The position numbers were made by a program, and so were the translations under genes. From Thermococcus guaymasensis DSM 11113 (GTDB lineage Archaea > Methanobacteriota_B > Thermococci > Thermococcales > Thermococcaceae), in NCBI RefSeq assembly GCF_000816105.1, contig NZ_CP007140.1:248001-312000 (forward strand): a DNA stretch of 64,000 nt. Direction: 5' to 3'. The notes below the pieces were generated by a model. The model made no database searches and was not told where the DNA came from. It was given only the letters and a program-made list of their open reading frames with translations. Below are positions 16,731 through 22,055 of this stretch, in pieces (the first letter of the stretch is position 1; each line of letters begins with the position of its first letter).

Positions 16731-17345
16731 TCACTTCAGAACCGGTTCAAGCTCACGGTATCCTTCCTTCGTGATCGTGACAACCGTAACTCCCTCACCT
16801 GTGTAGACATCCCTCTTAATGGCAGCCTTAACCGCCCTAACAGCCAGATCAACGCCCTCCTTAAGGCTCAGCCCCTCTGAGAAGTTCTCCTCAAGGATAG
16901 CGAGGGCAAATTCCATGCCAGAACCGGCCACCACAAAACGCTCTTCGGTTACACCTCCGGCGGCGTCTATCGAATAAAGCCTCGGCACAACGTCATACCC
17001 CCCAACCAGGAACCAGGCAAAGTACGGGAGGTGCCTGTTTCCGTGCAGGATGTTTGACACCAGCATTGCCAGTGCCTTCACTGACATTTCCCTGCCAACC
17101 TCAGCACGATAAAGCTTTGCCTCTGCCCTGAGAAGCCTGACGAGACTCAGGATATCCCCGACAAGCCCTGCACCCGCTATGCCCAGATGATCGTCTATCT
17201 GAAAAACCTTGGTTACTTCCTTCGAAGTCACCATGTTGCCAAGTGTAGCCCTCCTGTCCGCTGCCAGCACGACGCCGTCCTTACATACCACTCCAACGGT
17301 GGTGGTACCTTTCGTTGCACTCAGACTCCCTTTCAACAGTAACAC
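16731..17345 (-). CDS. psmB: Proteasome subunit beta
   Basis: Catalytic subunit of the 20S proteasome. A propeptide of about ten residues (KGSLSATKG) precedes [21 protein letters not shown]. Cleavage after the Gly exposes the N-terminal Thr nucleophile; the Lys and Asp of the active site (D in AADRR) follow. Its 204 residues match the family. GTG 17345 is given; TTG 17336 behind GGGGTG would shorten it by three residues. First gene of a two-gene operon with the FttA gene. Archaea of this group usually carry two beta genes; only one is in this window. Confidence 0.93.
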
Positions 17346-17420: not shown

Positions 17421-19937
17421 TCAGAAGGTGTAGTAGTCCACCCCTCCAGTCTCCTTGCCACCCTTTCTCCTCCTGCTCTCCTCGAAGTTTCTGTAGTACT
17501 CGACCATGTACGGCGTTATGCTGGGCTTAACTTTCTTTAGGGCCATCTCAAAGTCCTTCCTTGACACCTTCAGGCTCTCAAGGAACTCCTCACTCTGCTG
17601 CTCAACGAGTTCCCGCGGGAGCTTTGACACCGCGCGCCTCAGTGCTATCAACGCTGCCTCTCTCACGAGGGCCTCAATATCGGCTCCAGAGTAACCTTCG
17701 GTTCTCTTGGCGAGCTCTTCGAGGCTGATATCGTCTGCAAGTGGGACGCGTCTCGTGTGCACCTTGAATATTTCCAGCCTGGCTTTCTCGTCGGGTGCTG
17801 GCACGAGTATCAGCCTGTCAAACCTACCAGGCCTGAGCAGTGCTGGATCAATGATGTCCGGCCTGTTCGTGGCTCCAATGACAACCACGCCACTGTTCTC
17901 CTGAATACCATCCATCTCGGTGAGAAGCTGGTTGATCAGGGTATCGAGGTGTCTTCCTCCCTCGTAGCTTCCTCTAGCCGGTGCTATCGCGTCAATCTCG
18001 TCGATGAACACCACAGTAGGAGCGGCCTGCCTTGCCTTCCTGAATATCTCCCTCACCCTCTTCTCGGTCTCACCGACCCATTTGCTGAGCACTTCAGGCC
18101 CCCTGATGGCGATGAAGTTGGCCTGGCTCTCGTTGGCTACCGCTTTAGCGAGGAGCGTCTTACCAGTTCCGGGCGGGCCGTAGAGGAGTATTCCCTTTGG
18201 CGGTGTGATTCCAAGCCTCTCAAAGGCTTTTGGATACTTGAGGGGCCATTCTACTGCTTCTCTGAGTTCCTGTTTGACGTCCTCAAGCCCACCGATGTCG
18301 TCCCAGTGGACGTTCGGGACTTCTATCAAAACTTCCCTGAGGGCTGAGGGCTCGACCATCTTGAGGGCCTCGTAGAAGTCCTCTTCTCTGACCCTGAGCT
18401 CCTGAAGAACCTCCGGCGGAATGCGTTCCTGCTCAGGGCTCACCTTACCCTCCTGGATGAGCCGCCTAAGAACGACCATGGCCGCTTCCCTCGCGAGGGC
18501 AGCAAGGTCAGCACCAACGAACCCGTGTGTTCTATCCGCTATCCTGTCGAGCATCCTGTCTATCAGCTTAGCCTTCACCTCGGAGTAAAGCTCACCGTTT
18601 CTCTTCAGGATCTCCCTGACGTCCTCCCCGCTCTGGGCCCCCTCAATGAGAGGCCTTATCCTGGTAACCTCTTCGGCAAATTTATCTCCCCTCTTGGCCA
18701 GCTGGTCAAGCACTGCCAGAACCTCTTCCTTGTTAAAGGAGGGCTCCAGGGGCATTCCTCTGGTGTGTATCTGGAGGATCTCCTTCCTGCCCTGCTTGTC
18801 TGGGACGCCGACCTCAATCTCCCTGTCAAACCTTCCCGGCCTCCTCAGGGCCGGGTCAAGGGCGTCGGGCCTGTTTGTTGCTGCTATGACGATGACCTTG
18901 CCCCTGCTCTTGAGGCCGTCCATCAGCGTAAGGAGCTGACTGACAACACGCTTCTCGACTTCTCCAACAACTTCCTCCCTCTTTGGTGCTATGGCATCAA
19001 TCTCATCGATGAATATGATGCTCGGAGCGTTTTCCTCAGCTTCCTTGAAGATCTCCCTAAGCCTTTCCTCACTCTCGCCGTAGAACTTGCTCATTATTTC
19101 GGGGCCGTTGATGGCTATGAAGTGGGCGTTCGCCTCGTTTGCTACTGCTTTGGCGAGGAGTGTCTTGCCAGTTCCGGGCGGGCCGTAGAGGAGCACCCCC
19201 TTTGGCGGCTCTATTCCAAGCCTCTCAAAGAGCTCAGGGTGCTTGAGCGGGAGCTCAACCATCTCGCGGATCTTCTGAATGGCGTCACTGAGGCCGCCGA
19301 TGTCCTCGTAAGTGACCTCTGGGATGCTCTCCTCGCGGACCTCAACTGCCTGGGGGAGAACCTCCACTTCCGTGTTGTAGGTTATCTGGACAATGCCCTT
19401 GGGAACCGTGTTCACAACCACGAACTTTAGCTCGCCAAAACCTATTGGCATGGCCTCGAAGAGACCCCTGATGAGGTCGTCGAGCGGGCTTCCGTAATAA
19501 CCGGTTTCGCCCCTGCCGCTCGCTACGATTATGTCTCCCTTTACAACCGGCCGCCCTAGAAGGTTCTGCTTGACTATATCGCCTGGTATCTGGAGGATGA
19601 CGCCTTTCTGGGCAGGGGCCAGGACAACTTTCTTCGCCTCCTGCACCTGAGCCTTTCTAATGGTGATGTAGTCGCCTATGCTGACACCGGCGTTTTTCCT
19701 GATGTAGCCGTCCATTCTTATTATGTCGAGACCTCTGTCGTCTGGGTGGGCGTTGGCGACTATCGCGGCAGTCGAGCGGGAACCTATGAGCTCAACGATG
19801 TCGCCCACACTGACCCCCAGCTTACGCTGGTACGGTCTGTCAAAGCGGACTATGCCCCTCCCAACATCAACTTTCAATGCCTCTGCAACCCTGAGCTTTA
19901 TCTCCTCAACTCTCTCCTCGCCCTTTCCAAAAATCAC
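17421..19937 (-). CDS. cdc48: Cdc48/VAT AAA+ ATPase
   Basis: Hexameric unfoldase that feeds substrates to the proteasome. Order: N-domain (about 1-200, double-psi barrel [18 protein letters not shown]), D1 ATPase with [17 protein letters not shown] and [14 protein letters not shown], and D2 ATPase with a second identical Walker A and [16 protein letters not shown]1 contains about 58 extra helical residues between GMPL and THGFVGADL, at the start of its lid. The C-terminus ends in VDYYTF, an aromatic tail (the archaeal hydrophobic-Tyr-X type) expected to dock on the 20S proteasome. Start GTG 19937 is set by GGAGGTG six bases upstream. The proteasome beta gene lies just downstream on the same strand. 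Confidence 0.94.
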
Positions 19938-20004: not shown

Positions 20005-20763
20005 CTATTTCTTTCTCCTCTGCCGCTCTATTGCCTCCTCAAGGGTCATGTTGCCTATGGCGACTTCCCTCGCAAGCTTTGTGGAAATTGTAATGTTGCC
20101 GCTTAACTCCCTGCTCCTCCTCTTGATATCCTCGATCTCGCGTTTGGTTGGCTCTCTAACTTCCAGAAGGTCTTTGATAGCGACCTCCCGTCCTCCCCTA
20201 AGGCCTATGTTTATGGACGCCACTATGTCCTGAACACCGGGAGCCTCCGTGTTTCCGACCCTGGGTGTTGTCCTGGCTTCATTTACAAGTATAACCCTGT
20301 AGTCATAGCCGAGCTCCCGCCCCAAGGCCTTAAGGGTCAGAGTCCTCTGCCTCTTGGCCCCATGCCCGATCTTTATTCTCGCCCCCGGATACTTTTCGAG
20401 GAGCTCAAGAACTATGGAAACGTCCCTCGGGTCTTTCATTCTGTGGACTTCAAGGACGCGGTTGTCGGCCACGACGCTAACGCCGGGCCTCTCCCCGGGA
20501 TCGATGGCTATGAACACCTGTTTGAACCTCTCCCTCCCCTCAAGAAACGCCAGAAGTTCGTCTATAAAGCCCTCGTCCTCAACAAGGATTTTAGCGGGAA
20601 AATCAACCTTCTCCCAGCTGGCCTCGTCTACAAGAACTACCTCGACATCGAAAGGTATCTTCTCACCCGGCCTGAGGCTGTAAAATCCTATCCTGTAAGC
20701 CTTCAGAGTCTTCACGATCAGGTAGTACTTCCTCGCATCCTCGGTGATTACTGCAACTCTCAT
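20005..20763 (-). CDS. RNase H-fold (RuvC/YqgF-like) protein, unknown function
   Basis: 252 residues, not assigned to a named enzyme. A receiver-like N-terminal part (RVAVITEDARKYYLIVKTLK, about 1-75) is followed by a domain with RuvC-type signatures: VFIAIDPGERPGVSVV (D88), IGHGAKRQR, ILVNEARTTPRVG (E162) and EAPGVQDIVASINIGLRGG (D179). The D-E-D set, spacing and glycine-rich first strand fit a metal-dependent RNase H-fold nuclease. A helical, basic C-terminus (REIEDIKRRSREL) could bind nucleic acid. ATG 20763 shares a symmetrical TATA region with the divergent microprotein gene. Catalysis is inference from motif order. Confidence 0.7.
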   Translation of the reverse strand: MRVAVITEDARKYYLIVKTLKAYRIGFYSLRPGEKIPFDVEVVLVDEASWEKVDFPAKILVEDEGFIDELLAFLEGRERFKQVFIAIDPGERPGVSVVADNRVLEVHRMKDPRDVSIVLELLEKYPGARIKIGHGAKRQRTLTLKALGRELGYDYRVILVNEARTTPRVGNTEAPGVQDIVASINIGLRGGREVAIKDLLEVREPTKREIEDIKRRSRELSGNITISTKLAREVAIGNMTLEEAIERQRRKK

Positions 20764-20796
20764 TCTTAACCCCTGCCAGGATGTCGGGGAAAAGCC

Positions 20797-20828
20797 TTAA
20801 ATCTTTCACCCCAAATATGTTTTGGGGT
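20797..20828 (+). promoter_or_regulatory. Divergent promoter with a perfect 8-5-8 palindrome
   Basis: TTAAATC (20797-20803) reads as a TATA-like box in both directions (CCTTAAAT / ATTTAAGG). On the + side, ACCCCAAA (20808-20815), spacer TATGT, TTTGGGGT (20821-20828) is a perfect inverted repeat. It covers the expected transcription start of the 47-residue acidic gene and lies upstream of the TATA box for the RuvC-like gene. I recognise no named regulator for this motif. Confidence 0.6.
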
Positions 20829-20835
20829 AAGTGGT

Positions 20836-20979
20836 ATGTTCCAGCCTAAAAAGAAGCTGAGAAAGGTCGAGGAAGAGGACGAGGACTACCTTGAAGAAGA
20901 GCTCTGGGAGGAAGAGTTCGAAGACGAGGACTGGGAGGAAGAATGGGAGGAGGACTGGGAAGAGGAAGAGGACTGGTAA
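20836..20979 (+). CDS. Acidic, tryptophan-rich microprotein (47 aa)
   Basis: Not recognised. ATG 20836 follows GGGGTAAGTGGT and a TATA box plus palindrome. The first ten residues are basic (MFQPKKKLRK). The rest is almost only E and D, with aromatic residues at Y18, W24, F28, W33, W37, W41 and W47, and stops at TAA 20977. Aromatics every four to five residues would line one side of an acidic helix. The last 94 bases are antisense to the 3' end of the helical-repeat gene. Could be a nucleic-acid mimic, a chaperone-like or charge-shield peptide, or a ribosomal/RNA-polymerase accessory; none is shown. Confidence 0.6.
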   Translation: MFQPKKKLRKVEEEDEDYLEEELWEEEFEDEDWEEEWEEDWEEEEDW

Positions 20980-22055
20980 AGAAGCCGGTCCTCAAACTCC
21001 CTCTGGATTTTTACGCCCATCTCAAATATTTTGCGGGACTTTCTTAAGAGTTCTTCACTGCCGGTTTTCTTCGCCTCGCCAAGCATCTCAAAGGCGAGGA
21101 ACTTGAGCAGACGGGCGAGGAGATACTCACTCCGGGGTTTAAGGATAACTTCAACGAGTTTCCGATCCAGAGGTGTTCTCATAGCGAGCTCCCTCAGAAG
21201 AACCAGACTCTTAACGGGATCCCGGAATTTAGGTGAGAGCACATAAACTTTTTCCAGCTCTCCCCTTTCAACAAACCTGAGCGCCAGCAGGTAAGCCAGA
21301 TTTTCAGCCACTTCCGCACTCTTGACTGCTTCAAAGGCCCTCCCCACTAAGCCTGCATCGAAGTAAATCATCCCCGCCGATTCAATAAGCTCACTTCTGA
21401 GGGGTTCCTCCACAAGCCCTGCCCAGTATTCGAGCTCATCAACTTTGGCTAGCTCCCTAATGAGGTGGAGGTAGTCTAAAAAGTAGCTAGCTTGTCGGAG
21501 CTCAACGCCAAAAGCAGGCTTCTCAGGAACTTTTTTGGGGACTTCACCAAGCGGAATGACTTCATTACGAAATTCGCCCTTTATTTTGAGTATCTCCCCA
21601 CCGGGCATCAGCTTGTTGCCCTTGAGGCTTATCCCTCCAGGTAGGGGCTTCAATGCTTCGACATCGCTCTCGTCAAGTCCGAGTTCGCTAAGGCTTACTT
21701 CAGCTCCCCTCTCAACTATTGCCTTGGCCAAGACCGTTGCAACTGCTCTGAGCGCCTTTTTCCGAGTAAATTCGCTCCTTATCTTCTTAGCAACTTCTAT
21801 GGCCAGCTTGAAATTCCCTTCCCTTGAAAAAAGGTAGGAAAGGCTTGCAAAGGCCTCGTCCCTCAGGGACTCTGTGGAGATGACCTCCGCTATCTTCAAG
21901 GCCATCTCTGGATCCTTCTTGGAATAAGCCTCAGCCACCCACTTGAGGGCGTAGTCACGCCAGTAGGGCTCCTTAATGCTCTCAGCAAGGAGCAGAGCCG
22001 TTTCAACCTGTCCCTTGTCTATAAGGCTTCTGACATCAATCAGCCTCTCATCCAT
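20886..22055 (-). CDS. Helical-repeat (TPR-like) protein, unknown function
   Basis: 389 residues made of paired alpha helices of about 33 residues each (VETALLLAESIKEPYWRDYALKWV, PEMALKIAEVISTESLRDEAF, FKLAIEVAKKIRSEFTRKKAL), a TPR-like solenoid for protein binding. ATG 22055 has GGGGTAGAA upstream and overlaps the uridine phosphorylase stop by 8 bases, so the two are one operon. The last 32 or so residues are a low-complexity run of Ser/Gln (from LLYQSS on) that is antisense to the microprotein gene; this tail probably is not a folded part and may be a by-product of the antisense coding constraint. Confidence 0.75.
   Translation of the reverse strand: MDERLIDVRSLIDKGQVETALLLAESIKEPYWRDYALKWVAEAYSKKDPEMALKIAEVISTESLRDEAFASLSYLFSREGNFKLAIEVAKKIRSEFTRKKALRAVATVLAKAIVERGAEVSLSELGLDESDVEALKPLPGGISLKGNKLMPGGEILKIKGEFRNEVIPLGEVPKKVPEKPAFGVELRQASYFLDYLHLIRELAKVDELEYWAGLVEEPLRSELIESAGMIYFDAGLVGRAFEAVKSAEVAENLAYLLALRFVERGELEKVYVLSPKFRDPVKSLVLLRELAMRTPLDRKLVEVILKPRSEYLLARLLKFLAFEMLGEAKKTGSEELLRKSRKIFEMGVKIQREFEDRLLYQSSSSSQSSSHSSSQSSSSNSSSQSSSSR

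Follow-up and report, generated by a model that had tools for sequence, protein, structure and literature searches.

A small acidic, tryptophan-rich protein conserved in Thermococcaceae is a candidate flexible ligand of basic partner proteins

Acidic tails that carry aromatic residues are found in Chz1, FACT and similar proteins. Among other small and strongly charged proteins, the known DNA mimics present a folded charged surface, and the partners of Sem1/DSS1, namely the proteasome lid and BRCA2, are eukaryotic. In APLF an acidic disordered domain that carries aromatic anchors at intervals binds entire histone octamers (PMC9328677), and the acidic-exposure model describes how mutually repelling acids hold aromatic residues exposed for binding (PMC10550315). 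The chromatin of Thermococcus kodakarensis contains Alba, histones and TrmBL2 (PMC11946384). Here we describe a microprotein gene of Thermococcus guaymasensis DSM 11113 located in a stretch of 64,000 nucleotides, hereafter the window, which belongs to the single 1.92 Mb contig of a genome estimated to be 99.7% complete (Table 1).

The frame is open from ATG to TAA and its 47-aa product is MFQPKKKLRKVEEEDEDYLEEELWEEEFEDEDWEEEWEEDWEEEEDW. A preliminary description had pointed out a 47-codon frame with a basic head and an E/D tail carrying seven aromatic residues, and re-reading the frame gave all of these features. The head, MFQPKKKLRK, is slightly diverged from the M-x-PPKKKK head of the family defined below, and the tail is nearly all E/D except for Y18, W24, F28, W33, W37, W41 and W47, which lie 6, 4, 5, 4, 4 and 6 residues apart. 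Family members are composed of D+E for about 60%, with a net charge of -22 to -35. The stretch encoding the tail contains imperfect 6- and 12-bp repeats, and the 12-bp tandem repeat is a possible source of the length variation in the family (44-71 aa for complete members of types A, B and D).

Table 1 Features of the microprotein locus and its surroundings, with positions in the window.
Feature	Position	Strand	Remarks
Proteasome subunit gene	16731-17345		
CDC48 gene	17421-19937		
252-aa gene	20005..20763	-	Divergent from the microprotein gene; syntenic anchor of type A
A-rich BRE-like stretch	about 20788-20795	+	Just upstream of the TATA-like box
TATA-like box CTTAAAT	about 20796-20802	+	Putative, from sequence
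Palindrome ACCCCAAA-TATGT-TTTGGGGT	20808..20828	.	Perfect arms of 8 bp
Shine-Dalgarno-like stretch GGGGTAAGTG (ribosome site GGGGTAAGTGG)	20824..20833	+	Plausible but weak
Type-A microprotein gene	20836..20979	+	47 codons and a stop; basic head in codons 1-10, acidic/aromatic tail in codons 11-47 with W as last residue
389-aa gene	20886-22055	-	Converges on the microprotein gene
Antisense overlap, 94 nt	20886..20979	-	3' end of the 389-aa gene over the microprotein gene
12-bp imperfect tandem repeat GAGGACTGGGAG	20926..20966	+	Within the microprotein tail

The 252-aa gene is present in 91 of the 94 Thermococcaceae genomes and matches neither Pfam nor NCBIfam; judging by motifs such as AIDPGERPG, its product may have an RNase-H/RuvC-like fold. 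On the other side, the product of the 389-aa gene closes with a Ser/Gln tail (QSSSSSQSSSHSSSQ...) encoded antisense to the E/D/W codons of the microprotein, and a convergent overlap of 94-100 nt is kept in the source genome (G000) and in two relatives (G019 and G032). Homologues of the 389-aa gene at other loci in the genus are mostly about 357-366 aa long, and its tail is probably a stop-loss extension across the coding antisense.

Profile and pattern searches found at least one family member in 88 of the 94 Thermococcaceae genomes, and in 74 of the 75 genomes that are at least 90% complete, the exception being G012. The members occupy at least four genomic contexts, which we call types A to D, and some genomes have two copies. 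Type A adjoins the 252-aa gene, as in the window; type B (MYYPPKKKVQPKK... or MQPPKKKKKVEDY...) has a divergent threonine-synthase-like gene on one side and an MFS transporter on the other; type C is flanked by a lipoprotein gene and by a PiT phosphate transporter; and type D is found beside a DHPS-like gene in genus g3, which is probably Pyrococcus. The neighbour names given for types B, C and D were read from translations and not from profile matches. As the gene is free-standing in four or more unrelated contexts, we favour a function that is trans-acting and independent of any operon. Within the genus of the window (g1), 38 genomes have only type A, 11 only type B, 8 both, and 4 incomplete genomes neither, an alternation beyond what is expected by chance (Fisher p = 1e-4, relatedness not corrected for). 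In G015 the start codon of the A copy is gone, and in G078 (genus g4) the B copy is cut short; one copy may thus decay where A and B once coexisted, and the alternation together with these decayed copies fits functional redundancy. Searching 21 other genomes of the phylum gave no match at E <= 0.1, with a sensitivity limited by low complexity, and histone-bearing archaea outside Thermococcaceae seem to have no family member. The MQPPKKKK pattern was also searched for viral relatives, but the hits on six contigs were all short unrelated ORFs of 13-29 aa with no acidic tail. Likewise a tail-like match in a larger protein encoded by the source genome (G000:C1:450481) turned out to be a chance match inside an amidohydrolase-like ORF.

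To survey type A we examined the region upstream of the 252-aa gene in 89 other genomes for an ORF, and the microprotein was present at 60 loci that encode 58 distinct proteins. Their consensus is close to MQPPKKKKKVEEFEEEELFEEEEEWELEEDWEDEDWEEEWEEEDWEEEEEW, with a near-invariant PPKKK head and a terminal W in 57 of the 60 members (55 of the 58 distinct sequences). Across the whole family the start, the M-x-PPKKKK head and the acidic/W tail are kept, as is the C-terminal W in types A, C and D; the window copy belongs to this family by its head, tail composition, selection and synteny. Codon alignment of the window copy with three relatives (G019, G032 and G029) gave a pS of 0.93-1.00 and a pN of 0.06-0.11, the values for the nearest relative being 0.93 and 0.06, and the pooled pN/pS was 0.15 over all type-A pairs and 0.165 over type-B pairs. 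Synonymous sites are saturated and replacements are few, and the protein sequence is under strong selection. Compared with controls in which the tail was shuffled, alignment scores were higher by 8 sd among near relatives and by about 3-6 sd among the others, with about 3 sd for the other types, which indicates that the order of the tail is conserved beyond its composition. The conservation that the preliminary description had asked for in relatives, of start, stop and aromatic spacing with synonymous drift, was therefore found.

Some members depart from this picture. G041 (L039) and G067 (L044) have strongly diverged type-A copies with only 1-2 W, a MPPKRRP head and a C-terminus reading DDVELDEEID or DDSDLEDEVI; their divergence possibly reflects a changed partner or relaxed selection. 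We also observed that the first Pro codon (codon 3) is CCT in 39 of the 42 distinct MQPP heads, in several genera. Of all Pro codons CCT is the one used least (17%), and the other synonymous sites are saturated. Pairing of this codon with the Shine-Dalgarno sequence was tested and does not explain the preference. Folds had also hinted that the Pro-Pro codons (CCTCC) might sequester the Shine-Dalgarno sequence, but the native sequences were no more stable than synonymous variants and their Shine-Dalgarno sequence was no more paired.

Upstream of the gene, TATA-like and Shine-Dalgarno-like signals were detected with loose patterns in 92 of 92 family members, and the promoter of the window copy is recognisable in G019, G032 and G029. 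The TATA box and the ribosome site proposed in the preliminary description are thus both in place, the latter being weak. The same description saw a regulated-looking promoter and a palindrome at the expected start, and this held only in part. The palindrome is real: its score was matched by none of 200 mononucleotide shuffles, its folding z was -1.96 against dinucleotide shuffles, and, beginning about five bases past the TATA box, it covers the transcription start predicted at about 20820-20826 from the typical TATA-to-start distance (PMC4247193). However, in the three relatives the TATA box is kept and the surrounding promoter aligns while the palindrome is broken, which rules it out as a conserved operator. 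Since the nearest relatives keep the box and not the palindrome, the latter is probably non-functional or specific to the lineage.

A different element was found in other leaders. In 33 of them, all 21 of type B and 12 of type A from genera g4 and g6, GCCC begins 21-23 nt past the TATA box, which is the typical start distance (PMC4247193), and in 32 of these 33 a stem of at least 4 bp can form with the G-rich arm that follows. One paralogue pair shows a two-sided change, from CGCCCC/GGGGCG in G074 to CGCCCT/AGGGCG in G080, and GCCCC(N3-7)GGGGC elements number only 5-6 per genome in g4. This conserved GCCC(C)...(G)GGGC element lies exactly at the predicted start and abuts the Shine-Dalgarno sequence in the type-B leaders L141-L143 and L169-L190 and in the g4/g6 type-A leaders. 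Such an element could act either as an RNA hairpin that caps the 5' end beside the Shine-Dalgarno sequence or as a start-site operator.

The preliminary description knew of no related family, and indeed none of the family types has a Pfam or NCBIfam match above the curated cut-off. Scanning 35 member sequences up to E 5-10 gave no Pfam-A match to Sem1/DSS1, and a profile search of the PDB returned no credible relative but only a spurious match to a centrin N-terminus (E 0.029). The helix proposed in the preliminary description, with aromatics lining one face and acids the other, was not borne out. The most common gaps between aromatics are 4-6 residues, and aromatics placed at random give an aromatic moment at 100 degrees per residue that is at least as high; with aromatics about 5 residues apart and no 100-degree periodicity in any type tested, a single aromatic face fails. 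AlphaFold proposes one helix over residues 6-44 at modest confidence (mean pLDDT 72, pTM 0.36), an outcome often seen with Glu-rich peptides that weighs little in either direction. A 39-aa tile with a charge of at most -9 and at least 7 W+F+Y+L was present in 92 of 92 members, which is the sequence rule of the acidic-exposure model (PMC10550315).

The preliminary description proposed that the protein could mimic nucleic acid or bind a basic partner, and both are plausible candidate roles. We consider it likely that the microprotein is an acidic-aromatic ligand of some basic partner. Our preferred reading, to which we give a probability of about 0.45, is a flexible acidic-aromatic ligand or chaperone with a chromatin protein as the leading, though not certain, partner; that it acts as a chromatin chaperone specifically is rather doubtful. 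The protein would be a free-standing, probably disordered polyampholyte. Behind a short Pro-Lys head, its tail of some 40 residues would carry aromatic stickers (W, F, Y) at intervals of 4-6 residues, kept exposed by continuous Glu/Asp. It would bind a basic protein surface in a fuzzy, multivalent manner, the aromatics anchoring the partner and the acids neutralising it, and would shield it, hand it over or displace it from nucleic acid in the manner of acidic-aromatic histone-chaperone tails. Its most probable partners would be the chromatin proteins that are basic and abundant in the family, namely histones, Alba and TrmBL2. A ligand acting in trans on a basic and plentiful partner fits the basic head, the stickers spaced evenly in acid, the independence of genomic context and the near-universality of the gene. 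That the protein is disordered in vivo, that it binds and what it binds are inferences. Against the chromatin role, the neighbouring genes (CDC48, proteasome subunit, threonine-synthase-like, MFS, PiT and DHPS-like) give no pointer to chromatin, and the family is apparently absent from histone-bearing archaea outside Thermococcaceae; against disorder stands the single long helix of AlphaFold, at its modest confidence.

The main rival to this reading keeps the same flexible ligand and changes its partner to the machinery of transcription or translation (RNA polymerase, ribosomal proteins or an initiation factor), for which it would be a displacement or hibernation factor. Charge and aromatics would suit any basic groove, and the putative 5'-terminal GC hairpin or operator beside the Shine-Dalgarno sequence in type B and in type A of other genera recalls autoregulated machinery genes, which often carry such elements; yet in the contexts read the gene never adjoins ribosomal or RNA-polymerase genes, and we hold this alternative to be possible but rather unlikely. 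A Sem1/DSS1-like cofactor of the proteasome/CDC48 system, small, acidic and disordered, with binding sites that combine aromatic and acidic residues, is the weaker proposal. It gains from the CDC48 and proteasome subunit genes nearby in the window, but the Pfam DSS1/Sem1 model is unmatched in the members scanned, types B, C and D lie elsewhere and the DNA read around them contains no proteasome gene, and archaea lack, to our knowledge, the 26S lid that Sem1 staples, all of which makes it very improbable.

Two further explanations dispense with a specific protein partner. A polyanion that buffers polyamines or divalent metal ions at high temperature would need only the D+E content and net charge given above; however, the aromatics are kept in number and spacing and the terminal W is near-invariant in type A, and because they would be needless for a pure buffer we regard this as improbable. 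Finally, the stretch might be no gene but a purine-rich low-complexity sequence, as its imperfect repeats could suggest, or simply the antisense of the 3' end of the 389-aa gene, which reads through it on the minus strand with its Ser/Gln tail. Conservation refutes this: synonymous sites have reached saturation but replacement sites are under constraint, and the antisense gene cannot explain it, since the 389-aa gene adjoins the microprotein in its closest relatives only and the start, stop, TATA box and Shine-Dalgarno sequence of the microprotein are kept family-wide. The ORF is almost certainly a real conserved gene.

Returning to the preferred reading of a flexible ligand of chromatin proteins, its furthest extension would make the microprotein the first free-standing acidic-aromatic chaperone of histones (or of Alba or TrmBL2) in Archaea, near-universal in Thermococcaceae, with partly interchangeable A and B paralogues whose dosage, in type B and in some lineages of type A, would be set through the conserved hairpin or operator at the 5' end of the mRNA. 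This is a speculation that we think unlikely to hold in full. Were it a chaperone of chromatin proteins, acidic-aromatic disordered tails thought to be eukaryotic would exist as stand-alone proteins in archaea. In any case, a tiny gene under strong selection in nearly all genomes of a heavily studied family has no Pfam or NCBIfam model. Genetic tools exist for Thermococcus kodakarensis, which makes essentiality and partners open to direct testing.

Compared with known systems, the microprotein resembles Sem1/DSS1 in being small, acidic, tryptophan-containing and, presumably, disordered and multi-partner, but it has no profile match to it, the genomic contexts of its family are unrelated and DSS1 has, as far as we know, no basic Pro-Lys head. 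It shares small size and high negative charge with DNA-mimic proteins but has no evident fold or helical charge face. Eukaryotic acidic activation domains of the acidic-exposure class follow the charge and W+F+Y+L rule that all members obey, and a similar sticker-spacer logic; the microprotein is far more acidic and its 47 residues leave no room for a DNA-binding domain, we know of no homologous coactivator in archaea, and the likeness is compositional only. The histone-chaperone feature of spaced aromatics in acid is seen in the gaps of 4-6 residues and the D+E content, while AlphaFold proposes a helix. The tails and domains of APLF, Chz1 and FACT are parts of eukaryotic proteins with few aromatics, whereas the microprotein is a whole archaeal protein that usually has 4-8 W plus a PPKKKK head, and homology to such tails is not seen in the sequence. 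The closest working analogue is the acidic domain of APLF, a disordered stretch that is likewise short and very acidic and binds through spaced aromatics (PMC9328677); the microprotein is probably disordered as well.
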